DNA from: Microvirga terrae
Lineage (GTDB): Bacteria; Pseudomonadota; Alphaproteobacteria; Rhizobiales; Beijerinckiaceae
DNA: 64,000 bases
Direction of reading: 5' to 3'
Assembly: GCF_013307435.2 (NCBI RefSeq)
Contig: NZ_CP102847.1
Location: forward strand, 1 to 64,000
The translations under genes and the position numbers were made by a program. Each line of letters begins with the position of its first letter. Positions within the stretch are counted from its first letter, which is position 1. Positions 2,632 to 34,989 of the stretch are shown here, piece by piece. The notes beneath the pieces are model-generated. The model did not search any database and was not told the origin of the DNA. It saw only the letters and a list, made by a program, of their open reading frames with translations.

Positions 2632-2713
2632 GTGGTAACTTACTAGTATTAAAATGTTCTATGGAAATTCTACTGGACCTTCCAGAACGATGATTTGGTA
2701 TCAGGAGGTCGCT

Positions 2714-3130
2714 ATGACTACGACCAATCGGGAACGCATCCTCCTCGTCGATACCAACCCGCTGTTTCTGGAGAGGCTCGCACAGAAACTTCGGGCACGG
2801 AACTTCGACGTCGTGGCGACAGGGTCTGGTGAGCAGGCCTTTCATGTCCTGAGGGACTGGACCCTCCCCGTCGACTGGCTCTTCAGCCGTGCCAGTCTGC
2901 CTGGCCTGATCGATGGCTGGATTTTGGCCGATGAGTATCACGATGATCATCCCAATCGGGCCGCGGTGATTGCTGCCGCGCAAGCGAGGGTCTCGGCCCA
3001 AGGGCACACCGTCCTTGAGGATCCGTCACCGGCTGCCGTGCTCGACACCCTCAGCGGCCTCATGGCCCAGCACCACGCGTCGGAGATTCTGAGCCATGCC
3101 GAACGTGAAGAGGGGCAACTGGCCGCCTAA
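2714..3130 (+). CDS. Degenerate receiver-domain (pseudo-receiver) protein, copy 1
   Basis: A 138-aa stand-alone response-regulator-like protein. The N-terminal ILLVD (Asp13) and the LPGLIDGW segment fit a REC fold, but the phosphoacceptor position three residues before LPG is Arg59, and the usual Lys-Pro near the end is EDP. Phosphorylation of the classical kind is therefore unlikely; a protein-interaction or phosphate-independent role is inferred. The ATG at 2714 has a strong AGGAGGT ribosome-binding site at 2703-2709. There is no output domain. The paralogue at 37048-37464 has the same length and the same Arg59, so the substitution is conserved rather than random decay. Confidence 0.75.
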   Translation: MTTTNRERILLVDTNPLFLERLAQKLRARNFDVVATGSGEQAFHVLRDWTLPVDWLFSRASLPGLIDGWILADEYHDDHPNRAAVIAAAQARVSAQGHTVLEDPSPAAVLDTLSGLMAQHHASEILSHAEREEGQLAA

Positions 3131-3559: not shown

Positions 3560-3750
3560 TAGGATGATTCCGCCGAACTGCGTGCCTCAGTGGGCAGATC
3601 CGAGTGCTCATCCACCGACGAGAACGCTGTCGGCGACAAGGAAACCAATCTGTCGGGGACCCTGTCAAGGCAGCAGTCAATCACACGCCAGGTCCAATGC
3701 AGCTGCATCGGCACTTGCGCTGTCCCAATCGATGCTGTCACGCAATCAAC

Positions 3751-3838
3751 CTAAACCTCGGTATAGTCATCGTAGACTTTTCGAGTGGGCGCGCACGCCC
3801 CCAACCCAGTAGCGCGATCGCCGGCGGACCGGCATGCT
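3751..3838 (+). promoter_or_regulatory. Conserved palindromic promoter-leader element, copy A
   Basis: Contains the imperfect palindrome CTAAACC-TC-GGTATAG at 3751-3766, a -10-like TAGACT at 3773-3778 (offset 22) and GCATGCT at 3832-3838 (offset 81). The same three blocks at exactly the same offsets occur at 28855 (+) and 15364 (-), aligned without gaps. Similarity to copy B extends about 40 nt further upstream. It lies 138 nt before the decarboxylase-family operon at 3976. The binding regulator is unknown. Confidence 0.65.
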
Positions 3839-3877
3839 CCGAAGCCATGTACCCACAGCGTGCGTCCCAGAGCGACT

Positions 3878-3975: not shown

Positions 3976-4497
3976 ATGAACATCTCGATTTCAGAACCCG
4001 CCAAGACATCAAGGACTTCCGTTCCGCGTCTGAACTATGCGGCGCAATCGCCCGAGCTCTTTAAAAAGCTCGCCGACCTCTCGGCTGCCATCCGCAAGGG
4101 CACCATTGAGGCGTCGATTATCCACCTCGTTGAGATCCGCGCGTCCCAGCTCAACGGCTGCAGCTTCTGCCTCGACATGCATGTGAAGGAGGCGAAGCTC
4201 CATGGTGAGCGCGAACTGCGGCTTCACCATATCGCAACGTGGCACGAGTCGCCGCTGTTCGAGCCGCGGGAGCGCGCCGCCCTTGCCTGGACCGAAGCGC
4301 TGACACGGCTGCCCGAGGGCGGCGTGCCGGACGATCTGTATGACTACGTCCGCGGCCAACTCTCCGAGAAGGAATTGGCCGACCTGACCTTTGTGGTCAT
4401 GGCAATCAACGCCTGGAACCGGGCAGGCGTGGCCTTCCGGTCCGTGCCGGGATCAGCCGACAAGCTCTACGGCTTGGATAAGGCAGGCCTGATTTAA
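3976..4497 (+). CDS. Carboxymuconolactone decarboxylase / AhpD-like protein
   Basis: A 173-aa protein of the CMD/AhpD fold with the redox motif Cys-Ser-Phe-Cys in NGCSFCLDMHVKEA at about residues 56-69. The CxxC plus downstream His is typical of the peroxidase-type (AhpD-like) branch rather than true decarboxylases, so a thiol-dependent hydroperoxidase role is more likely (family knowledge). The ATG at 3976 follows AGGAGA. It is the first gene of a run with the NmrA-like, cupin and isochorismatase genes, behind the palindromic element at 3751. Confidence 0.85.
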   Translation: MNISISEPAKTSRTSVPRLNYAAQSPELFKKLADLSAAIRKGTIEASIIHLVEIRASQLNGCSFCLDMHVKEAKLHGERELRLHHIATWHESPLFEPRERAALAWTEALTRLPEGGVPDDLYDYVRGQLSEKELADLTFVVMAINAWNRAGVAFRSVPGSADKLYGLDKAGLI

Positions 4498-4564
4498 GCC
4501 GGGCCAGCCCACAGGCATCCGTCCCCGAACGTCGCCGTAAAGGCTCTGTTACAGGAGATTGAGC

Positions 4565-5320
4565 ATGAAGATCGTCGTCAATGGCGGGACCGGCCTGATC
4601 GGTTCGAGAACCGTCACCCGTTTGCGGGGTGCCGGTCACGAGGTAGTCGCGGCATCGCCGCAAGGCGGCATCAACTCGGTCACGGGTGTGGGCCTCGCCG
4701 AAGCGGTGAGGGGAGCCCAGGTCATCGTCGACCTGTCGAACTCGCCGTCCTGGGAGGATGCCGCCGTTCTCGAATTCTTTCAGAAATCGACGATTAATCT
4801 TATCGCTGCCGCGAAGGCGAACGATGTCAAGCATTACGTCGCCCTGTCCGTCGTCGGAACGGAGCGGCTGCAGGCGAGCGGCTACTTCGTGGCCAAACAG
4901 GCACAGGAGACGCTGATCAAGAAGTCCGGTGTCCCCTTCACCATCGTCCACGCGACGCAGTTCTTCGACCTGCTGGGCTTCCTGGTCAACTCGTGGGGGA
5001 TTGGCGAGAAGGTGGTTGTGCCCGCCGCGATGATCCAGCCCATCGCCCCGGACGATGTCGCCGACGTCATGGCGGAAGTGGCGTTGGCACCGCCCCACAA
5101 CGGCATCGTCGAAATCGCCGGCCCGGAGCGTTTCCGCATCCGCGACCTGATTGCGAAGTACCTGGCGGCGACGGGGGATCCTCGGACTGTCGAAGCCTCG
5201 GCGGAGGTTCCCTATTCCGGGGCCAAGCTTGAAGAGACCACGCTGGTGTCGGACAACAATCCACGTCTTGGCAAGATCGTTTTCGACCAGTGGTTCACGT
5301 CCCGAGCCAAGGCCGCCTGA
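4565..5320 (+). CDS. NmrA-like NAD(P)-binding SDR-family protein
   Basis: A 251-aa atypical short-chain dehydrogenase. The N-terminal dinucleotide motif GGTGLIG is at residues 8-14, with a one-domain Rossmann fold ending near residue 250. The family includes NAD(P)H:quinone reductases and redox sensors that bind without turning over. The ATG at 4565 is preferred to the TTG at 4559 because CAGGAGA lies at the right distance. It is 67 nt behind the decarboxylase-like gene and the putative operon continues downstream. Confidence 0.85.
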   Translation: MKIVVNGGTGLIGSRTVTRLRGAGHEVVAASPQGGINSVTGVGLAEAVRGAQVIVDLSNSPSWEDAAVLEFFQKSTINLIAAAKANDVKHYVALSVVGTERLQASGYFVAKQAQETLIKKSGVPFTIVHATQFFDLLGFLVNSWGIGEKVVVPAAMIQPIAPDDVADVMAEVALAPPHNGIVEIAGPERFRIRDLIAKYLAATGDPRTVEASAEVPYSGAKLEETTLVSDNNPRLGKIVFDQWFTSRAKAA

Positions 5321-5373
5321 GCGCTCACGGCCACCAGCGATCCAACGCAAACTTTATCAGAAGGGCATCCAAG

Positions 5374-5799
5374 ATGATCAAGGAACTCTGCAACGCAGCC
5401 GTTGTGCTGCTCCTGACCGCAAGCGCTGCCGGTGCTCACGAGACCGGAGAAGTCGGGAAGGTCACACTTGTCTTCGAGCATGAGCTTCCGAATGTGCCAG
5501 GCAAGAGCATGAAGGGCGTTCTGGTTGAATACGGGCCTGGGGCGTCCAACGAAGCCCATACACACCCGCCGTCGGCCTTCATCTATGCCACCGTTCTGGA
5601 AGGAGCGGTCAAAAGCCAGGTCAATGATGGACCCGTCAAGACCTACCGCGTGGGCGAGAGCTTCACAGAGTCCCCCGGCGATCGCCACCTTGTGAGCGCT
5701 AACGCCAGCACGACGGAGCCTGCTCGCCTGCTGGCCGTCTTCGTGGTCGACACCACCGCAAAGGAACTGGTTTTCCCGCTCCAGCCGGCCACAAGGTAG
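5374..5799 (+). CDS. Exported cupin-domain protein
   Basis: A 141-aa protein with a Sec signal peptide (hydrophobic AAVVLLLTASAAGA, cleavage predicted before HETGE) and one cupin barrel. Metal-ligand candidates are the histidines in NEAHTHPPSAF and the His in GDRHLVSAN. It is a single-domain cupin, so a small periplasmic sensor, dioxygenase or isomerase-type role is possible. ATG 5374 places the signal peptide at the N-terminus, which decides this start. It is the third gene of the operon starting at 3976. Confidence 0.8.
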   Translation: MIKELCNAAVVLLLTASAAGAHETGEVGKVTLVFEHELPNVPGKSMKGVLVEYGPGASNEAHTHPPSAFIYATVLEGAVKSQVNDGPVKTYRVGESFTESPGDRHLVSANASTTEPARLLAVFVVDTTAKELVFPLQPATR

Positions 5800-5847: not shown

Positions 5848-6663
5848 ATGCATAACGATGATTGCTGTAAACCGCACCGGCGTTCATTCCTAGCGGCCAT
5901 GGCCGGCATGACGGCAACCGGTTTGACGGCGGCAGGATCAGGTGCTGCTGCCCAAACTGCGGCCCCCAATTTTTATGCTGATCCCGTCAACCCGGCTCTT
6001 CCGAAAGGGAGCATGAAGTTGGACGCGTCCAGGGCAGCCCTGGTCGTCGTTGATCCGCAGATCGACTTCATGAGCCCGCAAGGCAAGGCATGGCCGGTCG
6101 TGGGCGAAAGCGTCACCGAGCACAATGTGGTCCCGAACCTCGGCCGCTTGTTCGCGGCCGCAAAGGCCGCCGGAATCGTCGTCGCGATCTCTCCTCATCA
6201 TTACTACCCCTGGGATCACGACTGGAAAGTCCAAGGTCCGCTCGAGGTCTTCCAACATGAAGTGGGTGTCTTTGATCGGTCAGGACCCTACACGGTTGAT
6301 GGCTTCAGCGGGTCCGGCGCCGACTTCCTGCCGGAGTTCAAGAAGTACATCGAGGACGGTAAGACGATCATCTGCTCGCCGCACAAACTGTATGGACCGC
6401 AGGCCAACGACCTGCCCCTGCAACTCCGCAAGCAGCGTGTCGATCAGATCGTTCTGGCGGGGATGCTGGCCAATATGTGCATCGAGTCTCACTGCCGGGA
6501 ATTCCTCGAACAGGGCTTCGAGGTTGCTGTCGTCCGCGATGCCATAGCGGCTCCGAAGTTTCCGGAAGGCGATGGCTATCTCGCGGCGCTGATCAACTTC
6601 CGCTATATGGCGAATGGCCTTTGGACAACGGACGAAACGATCCGGATGCTTCAGAAGACCTGA
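5848..6663 (+). CDS. Tat-exported isochorismatase-family cysteine hydrolase
   Basis: A 271-aa protein. The N-terminus HRRSFLAAMAGMTATG is a twin-arginine signal; the mature part is an isochorismatase-like alpha/beta fold with the Asp of VVDPQIDF and the nucleophile Cys of ANMCIES. The usual cis-peptide region is represented by VLAGMLANMC. It is predicted to hydrolyse an amide or related bond in the periplasm; the substrate is unknown. AGGAGG precedes ATG 5848. It is the last gene of the operon and is followed by a hairpin. A cytosolic family member lies at 27840-28523. Confidence 0.85.
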   Translation: MHNDDCCKPHRRSFLAAMAGMTATGLTAAGSGAAAQTAAPNFYADPVNPALPKGSMKLDASRAALVVVDPQIDFMSPQGKAWPVVGESVTEHNVVPNLGRLFAAAKAAGIVVAISPHHYYPWDHDWKVQGPLEVFQHEVGVFDRSGPYTVDGFSGSGADFLPEFKKYIEDGKTIICSPHKLYGPQANDLPLQLRKQRVDQIVLAGMLANMCIESHCREFLEQGFEVAVVRDAIAAPKFPEGDGYLAALINFRYMANGLWTTDETIRMLQKT

Positions 6664-9237: not shown

Positions 9238-11532
9238 TCAATCAGAGGAGACGGTGGAGGCCTGCACCTCCACCACAGCGATAGCCGTGAGGTTGACGAT
9301 GCCGCGTGCCGTCACGGACGGGGTCAGGATATGCGCGGGCTTGGCCGGGCCAATGAGGATCGGGCCGACGGGAAGAGAATCCGCCAGGATCTTAGTAAAC
9401 TGGAAGGCGATGTTGGTGGCGTCCAAGTTCGGCATGATCAGCACATTGGCCTCGCCTTTCAGGCGGGAGTTCGGATTCACCCGGTCGCGGATCATCTGGG
9501 ACAGGGCTGAATCCGCCTGCATCTCGCCATCAACCTCGAGATCCGGCGCACGCTCGTTGATGCAGGCCAGCGCCTCACGCATCTTGAGCGCCGAGCGGCT
9601 GTCGGCAGCACCGAAATCCGAGTGCGACAGGAGCGCGATCTTAGGCTCCATGCCGAAGCGACGCACGTGGCTCGCGCAGGCGATCGTCATATCGGCGATC
9701 TGCTCCGCGGTCGGGTCGACCTGCACATGGGTGTCGGCCAGGAAGTAAGCACCCTTGGATGTGATCACCAGGGACAGGGCCGCCATCTCGTGGACACCGG
9801 GAGCCAGCCCGATGATGTCCTTGATGTGCTTGACCCGGGACTGAAAGCGGCCCTCTAGGCCGCAGATCAGCGCATCCGCATCTCCTCGCTTTACCGCGAG
9901 GGCCCCGATGACGGTGTTGTTGGTGCGCACCAGGGTCTTGGCTGCATCCGGCGTGATGCCCTTGCGGCCTGCGGCCTCGACATAGGTTGAGACGTATTCT
10001 CGGTAACGCGGATCGTCTTCCGGGTTCACCAGCTCGAAATGCCGGCCGATCTCCATGGACAGGCCGAAGCGCTTGATCCGGGCCTCGACCACGTTGGGGC
10101 GGCCGATCAGGATCGGCTTAGCGGTGCCTTCCTCGACGATGACCTGCACCGCACGGAGGACCCGCTCGTCTTCGCCTTCGGCGTAGATGACCCGCTTCGG
10201 GTCGGCCTTGGCCTGCGAGAACAGCGGCTTCATGATGAAGCCGGAGCGGAACACGAAGCGGCCGAGCGATTCAGCATAAGCCTCAAGGTCCGCCAGCGGC
10301 CGCGTGGCGACGCCGGAATCCATGGCAGCCTGGGCGACGGCCGGCGCAATGCGTAGGATGAGGCGGGGGTCGAACGGACTTGGGATCAGGGACTTGCGGC
10401 CGAAGGGATGCGCCTCGCCGCCATAGGCACGGGCGACCACCTCCGACGGAGCCTCGCGGGCAAGCCCTGCGATGGCCTTCACGGCGGCCGCCTTCATCTC
10501 TTCGTTGATGGTGGTTGCCGCCACGTCGAGGGCGCCGCGGAAGATGTAGGGGAAGCACAGGACGTTGTTGACCTGGTTCGGGTAATCCGAGCGTCCGGTG
10601 CAGATCATGGCATCAGGCCGCGCGGCTTCCGCCTCCTCCGGCATGATCTCGGGAACCGGATTAGCCAGAGCCATGATGAGCGGATTGGGCGCCATCCCCT
10701 TCAGAAGATGGGGTTTGAGCACACCTTCGGCGGAGACGCCGAGGAAGACATCGGCATCGCCAATCACTTCCGCGAGCGTGCGGGCATCGGTCTTCTGGGC
10801 ATAGACCGACTTCCAGCGGTCCATGAGCTTCTCGCGGCCCTTATAGACAACGCCTTCGATATCCGTGACCCAGATGTTCTCGCGCCTGGCGCCAAGCGAC
10901 ACCAGCAGGTTGAGGCAGGCGAGAGCCGCGGCGCCCGCGCCTGAGGTGACGATCTTCACGTCCCCGATGCGCTTGCCCGCCAGCTCCAGCGCGTTCATCA
11001 CGGCAGCGCCGACGATGATAGCCGTTCCGTGCTGGTCGTCATGGAACACCGGAATGCCCATGCGGGCTTTCAGGCGCTCCTCGACCTCGAAGCATTCGGG
11101 GGCCTTGATGTCCTCGAGGTTGATGCCGCCGAAAGTGGGCTCCAGCGCGGCAATGACCTCGACGAGCTTGTCGACGTTCTTTTCCGCCACCTCGATGTCG
11201 AACACGTCGATGCCGGAGAACTTCTTGAACAGGACCGCCTTGCCTTCCATCACGGGCTTGGAGGCGAGCGGTCCGATATCGCCGAGGCCCAGCACGGCCG
11301 TGCCGTTGGAGATCACGGCCACGAGGTTCTGGCGTGAGGTGAGGTTGGCGGCCTGCGCCGGGTCGGCCGCGATGGCTTCGCAGGGGGCGGCGACACCCGG
11401 GGAATAGGCGAGCGCCAAGTCGCGCTGGTTGCCAAGGGGCTTGGTGGGCTGGATCTCGAGCTTTCCGGGGCGTGGGTGCTGATGGTAGAACATCGCTCCC
11501 GATTTCAGATCCTGCGAGATGTTATTAGACAT
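9238..11532 (-). CDS. maeB: NADP-dependent malic enzyme with phosphotransacetylase-like domain
   Basis: A 764-aa protein matching the MaeB architecture. The N-terminal malic domain ([10 protein letters not shown]) and NAD(P)-binding domain ([13 protein letters not shown]) occupy roughly residues 1-430 and convert malate to pyruvate plus CO2. The C-terminal phosphotransacetylase-like domain ([14 protein letters not shown]) is normally regulatory and binds acetyl-CoA. The start at ATG 11532 (MSNNISQDL) gives the usual length; the frame stays open for 54 more codons upstream, which are not family-like. It is followed by the TehA-type transporter and preceded by the cytochrome bd genes. Confidence 0.93.
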
Positions 11533-11615
11533 TCCAAACGACCCTGTTGCGGGATATGGTTTTCGATCCTTGGGTGTCTGGGACTTGAGTTTGCCCGGCT
11601 TCATCGCGCCGCACT

Positions 11616-11738
11616 TCAGTTCAGCCAGAATTTGATGACGAGGCCCAAGGCCGCTGTCGTGCCCACACCTCCGGCCCAGAGGCTGACGAACCACAGCCAG
11701 CGGCTCAGGACGGAGCCCGGTTCGTGATCGTTGGTCAT
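11616..11738 (-). CDS. DUF2474-type small cytochrome bd-associated protein
   Basis: A 40-aa gene: MTNDHEPGSVLSRWLWFV begins it, and one membrane segment (tryptophan-rich, then GGVGTTAALGLVIKF) ends in WLN. Its ATG (11738-11736) shares one base with the cydB stop (TGATG), giving translational coupling. Size, single helix and place behind cydAB match DUF2474 proteins, which accompany CIO-type bd oxidases as CydX-like subunits (family knowledge). It is short enough to be missed by standard gene finders. Confidence 0.8.
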   Translation of the reverse strand: MTNDHEPGSVLSRWLWFVSLWAGGVGTTAALGLVIKFWLN

Positions 11739-12745
11739 CAGTGATATCCCTCGTGGCCCGTCTTGCCGCGGAACACCCAGTACGAGTACCCGGTATAGGA
11801 CAGAATGATCGGGATCAGCACGCTCGCACCCACCAGCATGAACAGCAGGCTGGAATGCGGAGCCGCGGCCTCATGGATGGTGACGGCGTTCGGCACCACG
11901 TGCGGGAACATGCTCACGCCCAAGCCAAGCAGGCAGAGGGCGAACAGCCCCAGGGTCAGCAGGAACGGCCAGTACTCCCAGCGACGCATCAGGCTCACCA
12001 GCAGCATCCCCGAACAGAGGCCGACGAGCAGCGGCACCTGAGCCGTAAACAGGACCTGCGGCCAAGCAAACCAGCGCTCGTAATAGGCGCCGTTGAGGAA
12101 GGGCGTCGCCGCGCTCACCAGACCGATGCAGCCGATGAGTGCGATGGCGAGCTTGCCGGCCAGGCGGAAGCTGTGGTCCTGCACGGCGCCCTCGGTCTTC
12201 ATCACCAGCCAGGTCGCGCCGAGGAGGGCATAGCCGATCACGAGGCTGACCCCGACCAGCAGGCTGAACGGCGTGAGCCAGTCCCACCAGCCGCCCGCGT
12301 AGGAACGTCCCTCGACCGCGATGCCCTGGAGCAGGGCGCCGAGCGTGATGCCCTGAGCCAGGGTTGCGACGACGGAGCCCGTGGTAAAGGCGAAATCCCA
12401 ATAGCGGCGATGACCCGGGTCGCGCCAGCGGAACTCGAAGGCGACACCGCGGAAGACCAGCGCCAGCACCATGGCGAGGATCGGTGCGTAAAGGGCCGGC
12501 AGGATGATCGCGTAGGCCAGCGGGAAAGCGGCCATCAGGCCGCCGCCGCCGAGCACCAGCCAGGTTTCGTTGCCGTCCCAGACCGGGGCAACCGAGTTCA
12601 TGGCGCTGTCACGCTCGGGCCCCGGAGCGAAGAAGGGAAACAGGATGCCGATGCCGAGATCGAAGCCGTCCATCACCACATAGGCGAAGACCGCAAAGGC
12701 GATCACGAAAGCCCAGAGGGTGGGCAGATCAAGAACGGGGGTCAT
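11738..12745 (-). CDS. cydB: Cytochrome bd ubiquinol oxidase subunit II
   Basis: A 335-aa polytopic protein with the CydB N-terminus (YVVMDGFDLGIGILFPF, VWDGNETWLVLGGGGL) and eight to nine membrane segments. With CydA it forms the quinol oxidase that reduces O2 at high affinity without proton pumping. It starts 3 nt after the cydA stop and overlaps the DUF2474 gene, so cydA-cydB-DUF2474 is one transcript on the minus strand. Confidence 0.95.
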   Translation of the reverse strand: MTPVLDLPTLWAFVIAFAVFAYVVMDGFDLGIGILFPFFAPGPERDSAMNSVAPVWDGNETWLVLGGGGLMAAFPLAYAIILPALYAPILAMVLALVFRGVAFEFRWRDPGHRRYWDFAFTTGSVVATLAQGITLGALLQGIAVEGRSYAGGWWDWLTPFSLLVGVSLVIGYALLGATWLVMKTEGAVQDHSFRLAGKLAIALIGCIGLVSAATPFLNGAYYERWFAWPQVLFTAQVPLLVGLCSGMLLVSLMRRWEYWPFLLTLGLFALCLLGLGVSMFPHVVPNAVTIHEAAAPHSSLLFMLVGASVLIPIILSYTGYSYWVFRGKTGHEGYH

Positions 12746-12748
12746 GGT

Positions 12749-14173
12749 TCAAGCCTCCACGCCAAGGGTGCGGGTCGGGTCGACCGAGGGGGCCGGCGTG
12801 ATGCCAGCAGTGCGGATAGGATGGTCGGGGCCAGCCTCGGGCCCGGTTTCACTCCGATGGGGCGGCTTGCTCATGAGTTTCAGGATGTATCCGGTGCCGG
12901 CGCCGAACACGATGAAGTACACGATGATGAAAGTCAGCAACGACGCGGCTACGGCCGGGGCCTCGAGCGGCGAGGCCGACGCGGCTGTCTTGAGAAGGCC
13001 ATAGACGGTGAACGGCTGCCGCCCGACCTCCGTGGTGACCCAGCCCGCAAGCACGGCCACGAAGCCCGCAGGGCCCATGGCCAGCGCCAGCCCGTGCAGC
13101 GGGCGCCAGTCGTAGAGCTTGCCGCGCCAGCGGGCCCACAGGCTAAGCACCCCGAGGGTCAGCATCGCGAAGCCCAACCCTACCATGATGCGGAAGGACC
13201 AGAACACCACCGGCACATAGGGCCAGTTCTCGCGGGGGACCGTATCGAGTCCGTTCAGCGGGGCATTGAGCTCGTGCTTGAGGATGAGCGAGGACGCCTT
13301 CGGGATCTCGATGGCATAGCGGACGGTGCCGGCCTCCTGGTCGGGAATGCCGAACAGAATCAGGGGTGCACCCTCAGGATGGCTTGCGAAGTGCCCTTCC
13401 ATGGCCATGACCTTGGCGGGCTGATGCTCGAGCGTGTTGAGGCCGTGCATGTCGCCGGCGAGGATCTGGAGCGGGGCGACGACCGATATCATGCCCATGG
13501 CCATCGAGAACATCACCCGAGCGCCCTTGTTGGCGCGCTCGCGCAGGAGATGCCAGGCGCCGACACCGCCCACGACCAGGGCCGTGGTGAGATAGGCCGC
13601 CATCACCGTGTGGACGAGGCGGTAGGGGAAGGACGGGTTGAACACGATGGCCCACCAGTCCTGTGGCGCGAACTGCCCGGCCGCATTGATCGTGTAGCCG
13701 ACCGGGGTCTGCATCCACGAGTTGGCGGACAGGATCCAGAACGCCGAGATGCAGGTGCCGACGGCAACCGCAAGCGTGGCGGCAAAGTGCAGCTTGCGTC
13801 CGACCCGGCCCATGCCAAACAGCATGATGCCGAGGAAGCCGGCCTCCAAGAAGAAAGCAGTCAGAACCTCATAGGCCATCAGCGGCCCGACGATTGGCCC
13901 GGCCTTGTCGGAAAACACGGCCCAGTTGGTACCGAACTGGTAGGACATGACGATGCCGGAGACCACGCCCATGGCAAAGGCGAGGGCGAAGATCTTGAGC
14001 CAGTACTTGAACAGGTTGAGGTAGACCTCGCGCCCGGTCCACAGCCACAGCCCCTCCAGCACAGCGAGGTAGCTCGCCAGCCCGATCGAGAACGACGGGA
14101 AGATGAAGTGGAACGAGAGCGTGAACGCGAACTGGAACCGCGCCAGGAGCAGCGCGTCGAACTGGTCAAACAT
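12749..14173 (-). CDS. cydA: Cytochrome bd ubiquinol oxidase subunit I
   Basis: A 474-aa polytopic protein. SFHFIFPSFSIG near the N-terminus carries the conserved haem-ligand His (His22 here), NSWMQTPVGY and GRQPFTVYGLLKT are CydA signatures, and the length indicates the short-Q-loop, cyanide-insensitive (CIO) subgroup. The start at ATG 14173 has GGAAGGGGA upstream. A roughly 40-residue C-terminal tail rich in Pro and Thr extends past the last helix. It heads the cydAB-DUF2474 operon. A 132-bp gap to the MBL gene may hold the promoter; no clear FNR/ANR box was seen. Confidence 0.95.
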   Translation of the reverse strand: MFDQFDALLLARFQFAFTLSFHFIFPSFSIGLASYLAVLEGLWLWTGREVYLNLFKYWLKIFALAFAMGVVSGIVMSYQFGTNWAVFSDKAGPIVGPLMAYEVLTAFFLEAGFLGIMLFGMGRVGRKLHFAATLAVAVGTCISAFWILSANSWMQTPVGYTINAAGQFAPQDWWAIVFNPSFPYRLVHTVMAAYLTTALVVGGVGAWHLLRERANKGARVMFSMAMGMISVVAPLQILAGDMHGLNTLEHQPAKVMAMEGHFASHPEGAPLILFGIPDQEAGTVRYAIEIPKASSLILKHELNAPLNGLDTVPRENWPYVPVVFWSFRIMVGLGFAMLTLGVLSLWARWRGKLYDWRPLHGLALAMGPAGFVAVLAGWVTTEVGRQPFTVYGLLKTAASASPLEAPAVAASLLTFIIVYFIVFGAGTGYILKLMSKPPHRSETGPEAGPDHPIRTAGITPAPSVDPTRTLGVEA

Positions 14174-14305
14174 CGGATTCCCCTTCCGAACAGGGCAACG
14201 GCCAACTGGGCCTGCTCGTTGATGTGGAGACGGAAAACGTCGGGGCGGGAATTGCCGAGCGGCCCCACGCCGCGGCCCCATCCCGATCGCCGGCCGCGCT
14301 GGCGG

Positions 14306-15223
14306 TCAGTAGTCCCAGAAGACCGGCACCCAACGAAAGGCGTCGCCGGCGCTCGCCACCCGTCCGACGGACGGGAATGGCAGGTGGGTGGCCACCAGCT
14401 GTTCGCCCGTCGACGCCAGCTCCCGTAAAAGACGGACTCGAACACGGGCCGCCTCCTCGGGGTCGTGTTCGAAACCGTTGTGCCAGTCGGGGTGGTCGAA
14501 CCCGACCGCGAAAACGGCGTCGCCGGCAAACGTTAGCCGATCGCCGCCGGATGCCAGGCGGACCACACTGTGCCCGGGGGTGTGGCCGCCGGTGCGAGTG
14601 ACGAGCACGCCAGGCGCCACCTCGTGCTCGTCATCGAACTGCAGCAGTTGGCTGCGGTACTCTTCCACGAACCGCTTGGCGGTGGCCCTGAGCGCGTCCG
14701 GGAACCCCGCCGGCATGTGGACATGGGTGAAGTCGGGCGACTCCCAAAACTTGACCTCGGCGGCGGCCACGTGGATCCGCAGGTCCGGACGTAGCCGGTC
14801 CTTTACTCCTTCGACGAGAAGCCCGCCGATGTGGTCCATGTGCATGTGGGTAAGCACTACGTCGGTCACAGAGGCAAGATCGATGCCGGCGGATTCCAGT
14901 CGCTTGATCAACTGCCCAGCCCGCGGCAGGTTCAAGTTCGGATCCGGTCCCAGCCCAGCGTCGATGAGTATGGTCTGATTGCCGCTACGTACCATGACCA
15001 CGTTCAACGCCCAGTCGAAAGCGTCCGGCGGCAGGAACATGTCGTTCAGCCAGGCCGCTCGCGCGGCGGCGTCGGCGTTGTATCCCAACATCTCGGTCGG
15101 AAGCGGCAGCACTCCATCGCTGACCACCAGCACGTCAATCTCGCCGACTCGTACCATGTAGCGCGACGGAACCAACTCTTCGGGCCCACGTGTCTCGAGG
15201 TGTAAGGTGTTGTCCAAGCTCAT
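14306..15223 (-). CDS. Metallo-beta-lactamase-fold hydrolase
   Basis: A 305-aa protein with the zinc motif HMHMDH in VVLTHMHMDHIGGL, the later His of GGHTPGHS, the Asp of FAGDAVF and the His of VATHLPFPS, so a dinuclear site is complete. The length and DAGLGPDPN segment fit the AHL-lactonase/AttM-like group, which opens lactones, but other esters are possible. It is preceded on its strand by conserved element C, shared with the decarboxylase-type operon at 3976 and the exported hydrolase at 29006, suggesting co-regulation. Confidence 0.85.
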   Translation of the reverse strand: MSLDNTLHLETRGPEELVPSRYMVRVGEIDVLVVSDGVLPLPTEMLGYNADAAARAAWLNDMFLPPDAFDWALNVVMVRSGNQTILIDAGLGPDPNLNLPRAGQLIKRLESAGIDLASVTDVVLTHMHMDHIGGLLVEGVKDRLRPDLRIHVAAAEVKFWESPDFTHVHMPAGFPDALRATAKRFVEEYRSQLLQFDDEHEVAPGVLVTRTGGHTPGHSVVRLASGGDRLTFAGDAVFAVGFDHPDWHNGFEHDPEEAARVRVRLLRELASTGEQLVATHLPFPSVGRVASAGDAFRWVPVFWDY

Positions 15224-15276
15224 GTTCGTCTCCTGCTGATCGCCTTACCCACGGCCGCCTCTAGGGAGGTGTTTCA

Positions 15277-15364
15277 AGCATGCGCGCCTCCCGGAGATCG
15301 TTCCATTGAGCCGGCGGCGTAAATGTCCACTCAAATAGTCTATGATGCCTATACCGAAGATTAG
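15277..15364 (-). promoter_or_regulatory. Conserved palindromic promoter-leader element, copy C
   Basis: Read on the minus strand: CTAATCT-TC-GGTATAG (15364-15349), TAGACT starting at 15342 (offset 22) and GCATGCT starting at 15283 (offset 81), the same offsets as copies A and B. The block after TAGACT also shares GAGTGG with copy A. Similarity stops just upstream of the palindrome. It lies 54 nt before the MBL hydrolase start. Confidence 0.65.
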
Positions 15365-15397
15365 GTCCGTCCTTGGGGAGCCGGACCTTGCCGGTTC

Positions 15398-15590
15398 CTA
15401 GCTGTCAGACGGACTTCCCTCATCGTCTCGCGGGATCTCCTTGCCCTTCAGCGCGGTCTTGAGGCTCTGAAGAAGGACGCCATCGGTGACCGGCTTTGTC
15501 AGATACTTCGCGCATGACCTGCCGCTTGTGCTGTGTCAGCGGTGCAAAGAGGTCGAAATGCTGTTTGGCCCGACGGGCCTCTGCCATGTG
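15398..15590 (-). pseudogene. Remnant of response-regulator genes
   Basis: Minus-strand translation of 15517-15398 gives KYLTKPVTDGVLLQSLKTAL and a short tail to a stop, the typical end of a receiver domain (Lys-Pro then the last helix). In another frame, just upstream, APLTQHKRQVMREV resembles the start of a FixJ-type HTH. No start codon or complete domain is left, so this looks like decayed two-component regulator sequence. The rest of 15224-15734 holds only element C. Confidence 0.4.
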
Positions 15591-15734
15591 CACAACATCC
15601 TTCTCGATGTCGAACGAGGCGGCCCTGCGTTGTAGCAGCCTGGGAGGCTGTGTGGACTAGAACCATGACTTTACCGCAGGGAGCGCGCGCTGGATCGAGA
15701 ACGATAGCGAATTCGATCCAGCGCAGTGGGCTAT

Positions 15735-16946
15735 TCAGTGCGCCTCATCCGCCGGACCGAAGAACTCGTAGTGAATCCGGTCGGACGGGACGCCGGCCCG
15801 AGCGAGATCGCCGGTGAAAGCACGGAGGAAGGGCTTGGGCCCGCAGAGGTAAAAATCCGCCTCATGCAGCGGCGTATGGTCCTGAAGCCATTCTATGCTG
15901 ATAAAACCGTCGGCATCGTGGGTTTGGCCCACCGCGTCGTTTGGATGTGGCTCGCTGTAGAAAGTCGCGACCCGAATCTTGCCATGGGCTTCGGCCAATG
16001 CTCTGACATGACCGTCCATCGCGTGAGTGGCACTGTTCATGGTTCCATGAACGTAATGGGTCTCCAGAGCAGGGTGTTGGTCAGCAATGGTTTCAACCAT
16101 GCTCACCATCGGCGTCAGGCCCACGCCGCCGGAGAGCAGCACCACCGGCCGCAGTGGTGCTTCGGGCAGGAAGAAGTCGCCGGCTGGCGGCGTCGCTTCC
16201 AGGATGTCACCGATTTTGACTTCATCATGCAGGAACCGCGATCCGCCTTGGCCACTCGCCTCCCGTTTCACAGAAATCCGGTAGAAGTCTGAATTGGGTC
16301 CGCAGGAGATGGAATAATTGCGCTTGAGTTGTGCTCCACTCGCCGGGTGAAAGCGGAAGGTCAGGTATTGACCCGGCTTGTGCTGTATAATTGGCTGCCC
16401 ATCAACAGGACGAAGGACAAAGGACGTGATAACCGCACTTTCGCGGATTTTTTCTGCCACCGCAAATTGACGCCAGCCCGACCAGCCTCCTTCCAGATGC
16501 TCGATTTCCGCACGGATGGCGGTTTCACGCGATATCAAGATTTTGGCGAGGAACCAATAGGCCTCACCCCAGGCGTTGACGATCTCGTCGGTGGCGGCAT
16601 CCCCCAGCACGTCAGCGATTGCACTGAGGAGAGCTGTAGCGACATATGGGTAGTGCTCTGGGAGAATATGAAACCCGATGTGCTTATGGGCGACGCGTTC
16701 GACGACGGGCGCAAGAGCGCCCAAATCTTCGATGTTACGGGCATAGGTCAAAATGGCAGCGGCGAGGGCATGGACCTGTGCTCCACCGTCTCCCTGGTTC
16801 GCGTGGTTGAAGAGTGCGCGAATATGCTCATCCTGAAACAGCCGGGCATACATGAGCTTGGTGATGGTTGTCCCATGCTCCGCAAGGGCCGGCACTGTCG
16901 CTTTCACAATCGCGATTGTTTGCGGGCTTAAAGGTTGTTGCATCAT
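15735..16946 (-). CDS. hmp: Flavohaemoglobin (nitric oxide dioxygenase)
   Basis: A 403-aa protein. The globin domain (1-140; proximal His in VAHKHIGFHI) is followed by a ferredoxin-reductase-type FAD domain (RNYSIS) and an NAD(P)H domain (LLSGGVGLTPM, FYLCGPKPF). It oxidises NO to nitrate using O2 and NADH in the cytosol. The first ATG (16946-16944) overlaps the stop of the truncated haemoglobin gene (ATGA), so the two are translationally coupled. Confidence 0.95.
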   Translation of the reverse strand: MMQQPLSPQTIAIVKATVPALAEHGTTITKLMYARLFQDEHIRALFNHANQGDGGAQVHALAAAILTYARNIEDLGALAPVVERVAHKHIGFHILPEHYPYVATALLSAIADVLGDAATDEIVNAWGEAYWFLAKILISRETAIRAEIEHLEGGWSGWRQFAVAEKIRESAVITSFVLRPVDGQPIIQHKPGQYLTFRFHPASGAQLKRNYSISCGPNSDFYRISVKREASGQGGSRFLHDEVKIGDILEATPPAGDFFLPEAPLRPVVLLSGGVGLTPMVSMVETIADQHPALETHYVHGTMNSATHAMDGHVRALAEAHGKIRVATFYSEPHPNDAVGQTHDADGFISIEWLQDHTPLHEADFYLCGPKPFLRAFTGDLARAGVPSDRIHYEFFGPADEAH

Positions 16947-17374
16947 TGATCTCCTTTGGTAGTGAAATTTGTCAGCGAGGTCTCGCCGGGTGTGCGAAGG
17001 CGGATGGCAACCTGCAGGCTCTTGGCGATACGCCGTGCTTTCGCCTGAGCGGTCCTAGCCACCTCGTCGGGCAGCAGCTCGGTGGTGGCCTGTTCCCAAA
17101 GCTCGAGCCAGCGGCTGAACATGCCGGGTGTGATCCGATCGGCATGGATCAGGTGGATAACGACGGGATTTCCCTTGTACCGGCCTGAGGCCAGCATCAC
17201 CGATGACCAGAAATCCTCCAGGCGGTCGAGGTGCTCAGCCCAGTCGTGTACGGCGTCGTTGAACACGGGGCCGAGCTCGGCGTCGCTTCGAACCCGGTCG
17301 TAGAAGCGCCTCAGGAGCTCTGGCAGGTCTGCCTGGTCAAGTTCGAGGGCACTGCGCACGGCGGTGATCTCCAT
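16943..17374 (-). CDS. Group III truncated haemoglobin
   Basis: A 143-aa globin of the trHb3/P family: FYDRVRSDAELGPVFNDAV near the N-terminus, WAEHLDRLEDFWSSVML, and the proximal His region HLIHADRITPGMFSRWLELW. ATG 17374 with GGAGA upstream is chosen; the frame remains open for 24 codons without family likeness. Such proteins bind O2 and NO; together with the overlapping hmp a NO-detoxification pair is inferred. The upstream region carries ATGTATGG-type half-sites shared with hemA and the MocR gene. Confidence 0.9.
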   Translation of the reverse strand: MEITAVRSALELDQADLPELLRRFYDRVRSDAELGPVFNDAVHDWAEHLDRLEDFWSSVMLASGRYKGNPVVIHLIHADRITPGMFSRWLELWEQATTELLPDEVARTAQAKARRIAKSLQVAIRLRTPGETSLTNFTTKGDQ

Positions 17375-17460
17375 CGCTTGTCTCCAAGGGTGTCGTAGCG
17401 GAAGCGCCAAGCGACGCTTTGGTTTGCGGGTCGCCCGGGACAGCATCGAGTTCGGGTTAA

Positions 17461-27839: not shown

Positions 27840-28523
27840 TTACTCCGCCGCAACGGACGCCTTGGCTGAGTGGTCGCCCTCGCTCGAGCCGAACATGGCC
27901 TTGGCGTAGATCAGGCCGAGGCCGTAGCCGCCGCCAAACCTCTTGGCAATACCTGTAGTCAGTTCATAGGTCTCGGTGCGGGCCCAATCACGCTGCAGCT
28001 CCAGCAGATACTGCAGGGATGTCATCGGGCGTGCACCCGCCTGCACCATGCGATCCATCGCGCGGTTATGGGCCTCGTCGGTGACGTCACCACAGGCATC
28101 GGCAATGACATAGACCTCGAAGCCCTGATCGAGCGCGGATAGGACCGGACCAACAATGCAGACCGAGGTCCACAGACCCGCTAGGACCAGCCGGTTCTTG
28201 CCGATCTCATTGACACGCTGAATGACGGTCGCATCCTCCCAGGTGTTCATTGACGTGCGGTCGAGGAGCGTCTCTTCAGGAAGGGCGTCGGTGATCTCGC
28301 TGAACATCGGACCGGAGAAGCTTTTCTCCGCCACGGTGGTCAGGATGGTCGACACCTGGAAGCCGGCCGCCGCCTCCGCGACCATGGCCGCATTGTTGCG
28401 CAGGGTCACCGTGTCAATCGATTGAGTCGCGAAGGCCATCTGCGACTGGAAGTCAATCATGATCAACGTGTGATCGCCCGGAGTGAGCAAGGTCCTACCG
28501 GGTGTCGGTGTCGCATGAGCCAT
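27840..28523 (-). CDS. Isochorismatase-family hydrolase
   Basis: A 227-aa cytosolic cysteine hydrolase: Asp in LIMIDFQSQMAF, the Lys in AEKSFSGPMF and the Cys in LWTSVCIVGPVLSAL. It resembles the YcaC-like group of unknown substrate. AGGAAG precedes ATG 28523. The upstream intergenic region contains the palindromic elements E and B, oriented away from it. It is related in fold to the exported protein at 5848-6663. Confidence 0.85.
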   Translation of the reverse strand: MAHATPTPGRTLLTPGDHTLIMIDFQSQMAFATQSIDTVTLRNNAAMVAEAAAGFQVSTILTTVAEKSFSGPMFSEITDALPEETLLDRTSMNTWEDATVIQRVNEIGKNRLVLAGLWTSVCIVGPVLSALDQGFEVYVIADACGDVTDEAHNRAMDRMVQAGARPMTSLQYLLELQRDWARTETYELTTGIAKRFGGGYGLGLIYAKAMFGSSEGDHSAKASVAAE

Positions 28524-28707
28524 GGGGATGCTTCCTATGTTTAGTGAGAAGTGTTTTGTGAGAGGAGCGTCGGGATCATTCGCCCTGAAGATCCTGACAA
28601 GCCGAAGCTTTCTGTTGTCCCGACCAGTCACAGGAACGAAGGCCGGGACGTCGGCGCAGGACGTCCTACGCAGCTTGAGGCTTGGCAGAGACGGTCGGTG
28701 AGATCCA

Positions 28708-28735
28708 CTAAACTATGGTACAGGCCGTATATACC
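28708..28735 (+). promoter_or_regulatory. Palindromic promoter element, copy E (partial)
   Basis: CTAAACT-AT-GGTACAG (28708-28723) with TATACC at offset 22 (28730-28735). The downstream leader block of copies A-C is not conserved here; instead a CCCCG-CTCCGT-CGGGG hairpin follows at 28746-28761. It sits 147 bp before copy B, giving tandem sites upstream of the hydrolase at 29006. Confidence 0.45.
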
Positions 28736-28854
28736 TTTGTGGTAGCCCCGCTCCGTCGGGGACCATATCACAGCAGTCGACAGGCAGACGCTCGGGTGTG
28801 ATGCGCTTTCATTGGCACCTGTGCTGTACCGACCCGCACTGACACGAGTCCAAT

Positions 28855-28942
28855 CTAAACCTCGGTATAGTCTTTATAGACTTTCCGATTGGAGTCCCAT
28901 GCCACCCGTTTACTAGCGAGGTCTCCGTCGGGCAGGCATGCT
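28855..28942 (+). promoter_or_regulatory. Conserved palindromic promoter-leader element, copy B
   Basis: CTAAACC-TC-GGTATAG (28855-28870), TAGACT at 28877-28882 (offset 22) and GCATGCT at 28936-28942 (offset 81). It aligns with copy A without gaps over about 130 nt including upstream sequence. It lies 63 nt before the exported hydrolase start. Confidence 0.65.
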
Positions 28943-29005
28943 GCGAAGGTAGTGCACTGAGAAATCCCACCAAGGATGAAACTTACCTTATCAACGGAGC
29001 CAGGG

Positions 29006-29989
29006 ATGGCTGAACCACGACTCTTCACTCCGGCCCGTCGAGAGGTGCTCGGCTTCGGCTTGGGTACCGCACTCCTCGCCGGCTTACCGGTCAGGCAGGC
29101 AGCCGCTCAGCCAGCGGTCCGTATCAACTCACGAAACGAAAGAGACGACACTATGGGTACCATTACGACGAAGGATGGCGTTGAGATCTTTTACAAGGAC
29201 TGGGGATCCAAGAATGCTCAGCCGATCGTCTTCCACCATGGCTGGCCGCTGAGTTCGGACGACTGGGATGCTCAGATGCTCTACTTCATCGACAAGGGCT
29301 ATCGTGTCATCGCTCACGACCGACGCGGCCATGGCCGGTCAAGTCAGGTTGGTGATGGTCACGATATGGACCACTACGCCGCCGACGCGGCGGCGGTGAC
29401 CGAGCACCTCGATCTCAGGAACGCCATCCACATCGGCCATTCGACCGGAGGCGGAGAGGCAACGCGCTACGTGGCCCGCCACGGACAGCCGCAAGGTCGT
29501 GTCGCCAAACTCGTGTTGATCGGTGCCGTTCCGCCGATCATGGTCAAGACCGCGGCGAACGCCGGCGGGCTGCCACTTGAGGTGTTCGACGGCTTTCGGG
29601 CGCAGCTCGCGGCAAACCGCTCTCAGTTCTACCTCGATGTCGCCAGTGGACCTTTCTACAGCTACAATCGTCCCGGAGCCAAGCCGTCCCAGGGGATTAT
29701 CCAGAACTGGTGGCGCCAAGGCATGATGGGCGGCGCCAAGGCTCAGTACGACAGCATCAAGGCCTTCTCCGAAACCGACTTCACCGAGGATCTGAAGATC
29801 ATAACCGTGCCGACGCTCGTCATGCACGGCAACGACGACCAGGTCGTGCCGGTCGCGGATTCCGCGTTGCTTTCGGTGAAATTGCTGAAGAACGGCACGC
29901 TCAAAGTGTATGAGAAGTTCCCGCACGGCATGTGCACCACCCACGCCGAGGTAGTGAATCCTGACCTCCTCGCCTTCATTAAAGGCTAA
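29006..29989 (+). CDS. Exported alpha/beta-hydrolase (non-haem haloperoxidase/esterase type)
   Basis: A 327-aa protein with a Tat-like signal ([16 protein letters not shown]) in front of a haloperoxidase-type domain that begins at MGTITTKDG (codon at 29152). Triad: Ser in GHSTGGGE, Asp in HGNDDQVVP and His in the PHGMCTTH region; the oxyanion His-Gly is in FHHGWPLS. Such enzymes are usually cytosolic esterases with perhydrolase activity; here the signal suggests export. ATG 29006 with GGAG upstream is preferred to ATG 28976. Elements E and B precede it. Confidence 0.85.
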
Positions 29990-33795: not shown

Positions 33796-33811
33796 CTATA
33801 CCAAGGTACAG
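33796..33811 (+). promoter_or_regulatory. Palindromic operator, copy D
   Basis: CTATACC-AA-GGTACAG is the most symmetrical copy of the motif (6 of 7 pairs). Downstream similarity to copies A-C needs a one-base insertion. It lies 171 bp before the AraC-family gene and 53 bp after the DoxX stop. Confidence 0.5.
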
Positions 33812-33981: not shown

Positions 33982-34989
33982 ATGACCGACTCGATCCACC
34001 GTGAACCTTCTCAGAACCATCCATCAGCCGCGACTGAACTGCGCCAGAGCGAGCTGTCGACGGCCGACCGACGTCTTGCCGAAAGGGAGATGGAGCGCGT
34101 CCTCGGGACCACACCGTTCCGCATGGCTTTGGATTCCTCCGGGGCGGGGATCGCCCACTGGCAACATGACCCCTTGCACGACGTCGTCGAGCCCATGACC
34201 CACCACGTCATTATGGCATACAACGGCTCGGTTCAGCGCATGCAGAGGCGGACCGGAAAATCGGTTGCGACCGGAACGTTTCGTCCCGGGGTTTTGATTA
34301 TCATTCCTGAAGGATCAAGCTCCCGATGGGATATTCCGAAACCTGTCGATGTCGTTCAGCTCTATCTTCCACACGCGACGCTCCAGCGTGTTGCCGATGA
34401 AGCCCACATTGACAAGCCGATCGATCTCGTGGAGCGAACGGCGCATCCCGACCCCCTTATATCCCGCCTACTCCTGAGCGCGGCGGATTCACCGAGTGGC
34501 AATGAGGCCCTAGATACGTTGTACCGACAGCAGCTGACCGACCTGCTGGCGACGCGGCTCCTGGCTGATCACACCGGCTCGCCGATCACGGTCCAGCCGG
34601 CCTCAGGTGGGCTTTCCCCTACGGCGCTGCGCCGCGCCATGGAACGCTTGCGCTCGGACACCGATGCGGACGTCTCTCTCGCGGCCCTGGCGGCGGACGC
34701 CGGCCTGTCACGCTTCCATTTCTGCCGTGCGTTCAAGGAGAGCACCGGGCTGTCACCGCATGCCTGGCTGCGCCAGCACCAACTCGAGCAGGCCATGGTC
34801 ATGCTGCGAGACACTGATGCATCGATTGTGTCGGTCGCTATGGCGCTTGGCTATTCTTCCCAGACGGCCTTCGCGGCGGCGTTCAGGCGGTTGACGGGCG
34901 AAACCCCATGCAATTGGCGGCGACGTGCGCAATGGGCTTGCATTGATACCGCGGGCGGACCGGTTATGCGCCGATTGAGAGCGGCATGA
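33982..34989 (+). CDS. AraC-family transcriptional regulator
   Basis: A 335-aa protein. The C-terminal AraC HTH pair spans about residues 225-320 (LSRFHFCRAFKESTGLSPHAW, then VAMALGYSSQTAFAAAFRR); the N-terminal 200 residues are a cupin-like effector domain (GVLIIIPEGSSSRWDIP). Its stop overlaps the GH15 start (ATGA). Copy D of the palindromic element lies upstream, so it is the only regulator in the window carrying this motif in its own promoter region and is a candidate for autoregulation (inference). Confidence 0.9.
   Translation: MTDSIHREPSQNHPSAATELRQSELSTADRRLAEREMERVLGTTPFRMALDSSGAGIAHWQHDPLHDVVEPMTHHVIMAYNGSVQRMQRRTGKSVATGTFRPGVLIIIPEGSSSRWDIPKPVDVVQLYLPHATLQRVADEAHIDKPIDLVERTAHPDPLISRLLLSAADSPSGNEALDTLYRQQLTDLLATRLLADHTGSPITVQPASGGLSPTALRRAMERLRSDTDADVSLAALAADAGLSRFHFCRAFKESTGLSPHAWLRQHQLEQAMVMLRDTDASIVSVAMALGYSSQTAFAAAFRRLTGETPCNWRRRAQWACIDTAGGPVMRRLRAA

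Follow-up and report, generated by a model that had tools for sequence, protein, structure and literature searches.

Three loci of the window, by which we mean the entire 64,000-nt stretch of Microvirga terrae DNA analyzed here, share a genuine, conserved promoter module of about 100 nt, and its proposed assignment to a regulon of a known kind is well supported by the comparisons described below. Each copy probably acts as a promoter module of a two-component regulon of the StyR/FixJ type. According to the mechanism that we propose, a multi-PAS histidine kinase (C3:231497-235021) would respond to a presumed signal by phosphorylating a StyR/FixJ-type response regulator (C3:235226-236011), a dimer of which would bind a 16-bp inverted repeat, with a second dimer possibly occupying the sequence TAGACTT, 21 or 22 bp downstream. 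The regulator, presumably an activator rather than a repressor, would recruit RNA polymerase to a core promoter with a predicted -10 near offset 59-64 and a predicted start near offset 70, placing the box about 64 bp upstream of the start. The genes switched on in this way would encode CMD/NmrA/cupin/isochorismatase proteins, an MBL lactonase-like hydrolase, an alpha/beta hydrolase and an EmrAB-like efflux pump. Where an AraC protein and a leader RNA had initially been suggested, we can thus offer a concrete putative regulator-operator pair, together with a proposed regulon for little-understood gene clusters. Our search of the literature, conducted mostly in journals available without subscription, found no description of such a Microvirga regulon.

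Copies of the Module in the Window

The element is located at 3747-3847 (+; copy 1), upstream of the CMD/NmrA/cupin/isochorismatase genes, at 28851-28950 (+; copy 2), upstream of an alpha/beta hydrolase gene, and at 15269-15368 (-; copy 3), upstream of an MBL hydrolase gene. The ungapped alignment of copies starting at 3751 (+), 28855 (+) and 15364 (-), as reported in the initial annotation, was confirmed over about 100 nt, and TAGACT at offset 22 and GCATGCT at offset 81 (3832-3838, + in copy 1) were found in all three, as it had stated. The palindrome that it quoted, CTAwACC-NN-GGTATAG, is present except in copy 3, where CTAATCT-TC-GGTATAG is read instead. Pairwise identity of the three copies, calculated in blocks, was 0.57-0.95 from offset -4 to +96 vs. 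0.26-0.31 outside this range, the similarity ending near offset 96. In the 56 nt upstream, copies 1 and 2 are 61% alike and copy 3 is not. The palindromic box CTAAACCTCGGTATAG, which we propose as the response-regulator site, is at 3751-3766 (+) in copy 1, with a score of 24.4 under a box matrix that includes this copy. Motif search and box matrix also placed CTAAACCTCGGTATAG at 28855-28870 (+) in copy 2 and CTAATCTTCGGTATAG at 15349-15364 (-) in copy 3. Allowing up to three mismatches, CTAAACCTCGGTATAG has 5 matches in the window vs. 0.07 expected and none of 100 shuffles reached 5, so the match among the three copies is beyond chance.

Downstream of copy 1 are the CMD (carboxymuconolactone decarboxylase/AhpD-like) target gene at 3976-4497 (+; Pfam PF02627, NCBIfam ahpD_dom) and genes for an NAD(P)-binding, NmrA-like protein (4559-5320, +), a cupin recognized via the Cupin_2 protein of a relative (5290-5799, +) and an isochorismatase-family hydrolase (5848-6663, +). 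The alpha/beta hydrolase target of copy 2 is at 28976-29989 (+), and the MBL-fold hydrolase target of copy 3 at 14306-15223 (-). The NCBIfam model closest to the latter is that of the AidB-type acyl-homoserine lactonases; however, at 124.8 bits against a cut-off of 360, this protein is not a member of that family.

Distribution in Microvirga and Downstream Genes

A profile search of this and related genomes, proposed in the initial annotation, returned further copies. The first model (R1), sequence-only and built from the three window copies, detected a fourth copy in the M. terrae genome at C3:215546-215641 (-; E 4.4e-20), beyond which no match in this genome was better than E 0.4. The window and all four copies belong to C3, a replicon of 238,488 bases (plasmid). 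In other genomes R1 found copies outside its training set with E down to 1.2e-23. Across the own genome and 40 relatives (41 genomes), six relatives, all of them Microvirga, had copies at E <1e-9, and some match at E <=1, mostly noise, was present in 30/41. A second model (R2), built from 23 copies, yielded 29 copies in 11/48 Microvirga genomes at E <=0.01. When 297 sampled genomes of the order were searched with strict filters and 13 candidates scored per genome, the own genome was the sole match at E <=0.001, with 0/296 outside the genus. For genomes mentioned below, we infer the labels to correspond to M. lotononidis (G017), M. aerophila (G018), Microvirga sp. VF16 (G020), M. brassicacearum (G022) and M. 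zambiensis (G063).

The next gene in the same direction could be assigned for 28/29 copies, the remaining copy being L063:4544. It encodes an HlyD/EmrA-like adaptor in 11 cases, a CMD (AhpD-like) protein in 9, an MBL hydrolase in 4, an alpha/beta hydrolase in 3 and an NmrA protein in 1; HlyD/MFS/TetR genes follow the fourth own-genome copy. In M. aerophila the copies are in a single cluster comprising MFS-HlyD, TetR, multi-PAS kinase, FixJ-type regulator, receiver protein, MBL and CMD-NmrA-cupin-isochorismatase-hydrolase genes, and in several relatives copies are placed around the kinase, regulator and receiver genes.

Two side observations concern the HlyD-type loci. Between the fourth copy and the gene for TetRa, an AefR-like TetR protein, two TetRa-like reading frames (36% and 30%) are found at L061:7635-9442, the nearer of which (TetR_C_7) ends at the 5′ edge of the element. 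GGTAAC-like inverted repeats are present just ahead of the start codon in the HlyD upstream regions of L062, L064, L066, L067, L069, L070 and L072, with TTGAC near one of them; these repeats could possibly represent a second, TetR-controlled promoter.

The Box and Its Promoter Context in Other Genera

Searching contigs with a profile made from a regulator alignment gave at least 577 loci, of which the best 80, 75 of them outside Microvirga, were analyzed; the counts in this section refer to these best 80 of at least 577. The 75 non-Microvirga loci were picked by regulator similarity alone, and many come from related species and are not independent. Gene types near the regulator in these 75 were NmrA (45), MBL (34), alpha/beta hydrolase (28), cupin (26), HlyD (18) and CMD (14). 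Upstream regions were scored with a matrix from the Microvirga copies, using as threshold the 95% level of random windows, which for both the box and the core backgrounds include coding DNA. Among these best 80 loci, the box exceeded the threshold before 16/35 MBL, 9/21 alpha/beta hydrolase and 4/16 HlyD genes, and was near background before NmrA (10/57), CMD (2/13) and p229 (0/12) genes. Control genes gave 1/104 for the regulator, 3/37 for the receiver, 2/25 for cupin and 0/10 for MFS; under the slightly wider filter of this control count, MBL reached 17/36 and alpha/beta hydrolase 10/27. Boxes with up to two mismatches were found before 9/35 MBL genes (random, 6/350) and 7/19 alpha/beta hydrolase genes (random, 5/190), and before 0/9 RR, 0/4 HK and 0/32 REC genes, again within the best 80 loci.

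Of the 35 MBL upstream regions in this set, 17 contain TCGA[CG]N-N16-18-TAnnnT, as compared to 0.75% of random windows. In those 17 promoters the mean box score peaks exactly 38 nt before the core, at 2.9, with -11.2 for the next best distance, and the core occupies offsets 38-66 from the box. Judging by this spacing, the MBL promoter of the other genera would be sigma-70-like with the box near -66, and the fixed distance between box and core provides a signature for finding the regulon. The TCGAC-N17-TAnnnT core was present in none of the alpha/beta hydrolase (0/21), CMD (0/13) and HlyD (0/11) regions of these loci, and it was also absent from the module-type MBL promoters. Applying the MBL-promoter geometry to the module is therefore an analogy.

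The module itself was found by R2 before CMD genes in two Mesorhizobium loci of this set, L205 (E 2.4e-6) and L207 (E 0.0099, partial). No module match to E 10 was obtained in three CMD loci (Agrobacterium vaccinii, Sinorhizobium and Burkholderia) or in five regulator loci of Rhizobiaceae; three of these five regulator loci, searched again without filters, showed weak matches, the best with E 1.1. Palindromes also precede the kinase gene of Rhizobium, Ensifer and Shinella; we set them aside, as in our reading their codon pattern looks protein-coding.

Layout of the Module and the Leader Hypothesis

Across copies, conservation is concentrated in blocks with variable stretches between them: the box (0-15), TAGACTTATCGAGTGG (22-37), CAATAG (56-61), GATC (65-68) and CATGCTT (82-88). 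The main forms of the palindrome correspond to CTAAAC-N4-GTWTAG, a 16-bp inverted repeat. Its left half recurs 21 bp downstream as TAGACTT (3773-3779, + in copy 1), or 22 bp downstream in 3/29 copies due to an inserted base. TAGACTT is the best half-site outside the box, yet 25/300 column shuffles score as high, and its role as a third half-site is suggestive only.

Several MBL promoters of other genera have TAGCGT at offset 61. Because of this correspondence, we placed the -10 of the module at TAGCG near offset 59, which is exact in 15/29 copies (TAG in 24/29) and reads TAGCGC at 3810-3815 (+) in copy 1. By this analogy the candidate -10 would lie near offset 59-64 and the start site near 70, and the promoter may continue through much of the sequence that follows TAGACT. 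TAGACT and CATGCT were also considered as -10 sites and, on the same comparison with other-genera MBL promoters, ranked below TAGCG. No matching -35 is seen in the module, and the exact TCGAC-N17-TAnnnT core is absent from it.

A different arrangement, which we regard as unlikely, though the least so of the alternatives considered, would have TAGACT as the -10 with a start near offset 34, the palindrome as a repressor operator overlapping the -35, and the remainder as a conserved structured or regulatory 5′ leader. TAGACT is well conserved and fits TAnnnT, the module lacks the core of the other-genera MBL promoters, and the block GCATGCTT at offsets 81-88 is strongly conserved. However, the other-genera MBL promoters place their core at offsets 38-66 from the box, and the structured leader suggested in the initial annotation is not borne out: RNAalifold found no convincing conserved secondary structure, the 23-copy set giving 0 consensus pairs and the 29-copy set 4 weak ones, and no Rfam family reached its gathering score within the window. 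A 25-pair structure predicted by RNAalifold for three copies was lost once more sequences were added. A leader peptide starting at the ATG of GCATGCT was also considered; the frames differ among the three window copies, and a conserved peptide is unlikely since this ATG is missing in 4/29 copies.

A Linked Response Regulator Co-occurs With the Module

The preferred reading of the element as an activator-dependent promoter module points to the kinase and regulator genes introduced above, which are adjacent to each other on the same replicon as the window. Together with a separate receiver protein gene they span C3:231497-236515, a region that adjoins the start of the window if the replicon is circular; the kinase has seven PAS_3 stretches. 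Regulator orthologs were present in 10/11 element-bearing Microvirga genomes vs. 0/37 others, at a cut of E <1e-90 (at least 67% identity), which was chosen once it was apparent that a gap separated these from the next matches, at E 7e-67. Taken by themselves, these counts yield 1.7e-9, a figure to be read in light of the relatedness of the genomes and the linkage of the genes. The exception is G055, in which a single copy precedes HlyD and the regulator has no match at E <=1e-60. The initial suggestion of a common regulator thus gains support, at the sequence level, from the 29 copies, the recurring target genes and this co-occurrence. The specific candidate put forward, the AraC-family protein encoded at 33982, did not fare as well, as its ortholog (E <=1e-60) occurs in 1/48 Microvirga genomes, only its own, compared to 11 with the element. 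The AraC-family gene is more likely a target than the regulator, a possibility raised by the box at 33796 upstream of it.

The NarL/FixJ type of the regulator is evident from its M. aerophila ortholog, L062:11348-12079 (receiver domain, PF00072, 1.4e-26; GerE/LuxR helix-turn-helix, PF00196, 8.8e-18), to which it is 80% identical, and it aligns over both domains with 1yio and FixJ. Among solved structures, 1yio/1zn2 comes closest to it (E 5e-54), with FixJ behind (E 1.3e-38); 1yio is the StyR structure. The best NCBIfam match of the regulator is to FixJ, at 194.7 bits vs. a cut-off of 255.

Alternatively, the box could be used by another FixJ/StyR-like regulator of the genome rather than by the linked one. 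Relatives of 54% and 55% are indeed encoded at C3:143999 and on C2, respectively, and G055 carries the element without a close regulator ortholog. However, relatives at the 54-55% level (E 1e-60 to 1e-67) also occur in three element-free genomes (G003, G007 and G050), and it is the close ortholog that tracks the element, which makes this alternative improbable.

Marginally less credible still is that the palindrome is the operator of a linked AefR-like TetR repressor, TetRa or TetRb. Dimers suit palindromes, and TetRa orthologs (E <1e-100) occur in 9/11 element genomes and 0/37 others, but TetRa has no match at E <=1e-50 in the element carriers G046 and G055 and was found in 1/75 other-genera loci (of the best 80 of at least 577), and TetRb is lacking in G019 and G022 and present in the element-free G009, G043 and G050. 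In our reading, the separate GGTAAC-like repeat of several HlyD upstream regions, which is not seen in the flanks shown of the CMD, MBL and alpha/beta hydrolase copies, makes a better TetR operator. We give very little credence to a dispersed repeat or mobile element, or shared descent without function: up to 100 nt are common to the copies and Microvirga sp. VF16 has two clusters, but a gene of the same small set follows in the same direction in 28/29 copies, conservation is blockwise with variable stretches within, beyond its four copies the own genome shows nothing better than E 0.4, and in other genera, among the best 80 of at least 577 loci, the box is found by itself at a constant spacing.

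Two further features of the regulator loci were noted. A box-like palindrome (score 13.7) lies between the regulator and receiver genes of the own genome at C3:236018-236033, possibly reflecting autoregulation or chance. In L071, L149 and L150 (G017, G054 and G046), the kinase and receiver genes flank a gene for another FixJ-type regulator (43-50% to the first), and similar pairs occur in many other-genera loci among the best 80 of at least 577.

Relation to StyR/TodT and FixL/FixJ

The proposed system resembles StyS/StyR (styrene, Pseudomonas fluorescens) and TodS/TodT (toluene, P. putida) in combining a PAS histidine kinase with a NarL/FixJ-type regulator. According to one report (PMC5874301), StyR, TodT, TutB and TmoT may recognize ATAAACN4GTTTAT, and the StyR recognition residues are Lys175, Val176 and His179. 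The palindrome of the module bears a resemblance to the StyR/TodT operator. The inverted repeat core of that site, TAAAC-N4-GTTTA, is exact in 7/29 copies and in 0/3 of those in the window, which have GTATAG instead of GTTTAG; over the 29 copies the right half is GTATAG in 14, GTTTAG in 10, GTCTAG in 4 and GCTTAG in 1. As placed by us on alignments, the recognition residues are K kept, V replaced by L, and H replaced by G (S in Rhizobiaceae proteins), and since they are not all kept we class the regulator as StyR-like only. There are several sites per StyR promoter (STY1, STY2 and STY3), and according to the corresponding study (PMC2442086) StyR activates from a site at about -40, STY2, with further sites up- and downstream, whereas the Microvirga box is predicted near -64 to -66. 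Other differences are the many scattered promoters of the Microvirga system, the seven PAS_3 stretches of its kinase with the receiver as a separate protein, and targets that by family form no aromatic-ring pathway. FixL/FixJ shares the regulator type, FixJ being the best NCBIfam match although under the cut-off, but the closest solved structure is 1yio and the assigned targets include no nitrogen-fixation gene.

Two Promoter Types on Orthologous MBL Genes

Among the 48 Microvirga genomes, 9 have MBL orthologs (E <=1e-90), and all 9 are element-bearing; the MBL match in G055 spans residues 81-305, without the gene start. The MBL promoters of G046 and G054 have the arrangement box-38-TCGAC-N17-TAGTGT, and in that of G017 the core is present while no clear box is seen at the 38-nt distance. 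The module precedes the MBL gene in the own genome, G015, G018 and G063, and the G020 promoter is clearly of neither type. In a tree of modules, the NmrA copy of G020 clusters with the MBL copies at a support of 0.95, and CMD copies of G019 and G022 join them weakly (0.66). Upstream of copy 3, the DNA resembles that before the M. aerophila module, where the receiver gene precedes the module. These data fit, and do not prove, a takeover of a CMD-type promoter by the MBL gene, and the presence of two promoter types on orthologous genes within one genus constitutes a small natural case of regulatory rewiring. More tentatively, and as something we hold to be possible rather than probable, this may be a widespread alphaproteobacterial StyR-like sensing system, sometimes plasmid-borne, that controls an efflux pump along with hydrolases, perhaps to counter a lactone-type or aromatic signal from competitors or plants, and that has grown in Microvirga through promoter capture of the ~100-bp CMD-type module.

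Isolated Boxes and Neighboring Genes in the Window

Six sites in the window score above 12 with the box matrix, vs. a mean of 0.2 in 10 Markov shuffles, three of the six being the strong copies that form part of the matrix training set. The weaker copies listed in the initial annotation at 28708 and 33796 are among the sites recovered. The former (28708-28723; score 15.1) precedes copy 2 by 147 nt and a divergent isochorismatase-family gene (27840-28631, -) by 77 nt, and the latter (33796-33811; 15.9) is upstream of the AraC-family gene (33982-34989). A further box, CTAACCCAAGGTATAG at 2554-2569 (+; 18.9), is 100 nt before the ORF at 2654-3130, and M. lotononidis (L072) has a corresponding box and flank ahead of the homologous gene. 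This box stands without the 100-nt module, and the product of the gene has a weak receiver-domain match (24.3 of 30.2 bits, under the Pfam cut-off). Finally, the neighborhood of the MBL gene on the minus strand of the window (9238-17446) includes, after it, cytochrome bd genes and a malic enzyme-PTA fusion gene and, before it, a flavohaemoglobin-like gene as well as a weak globin match.
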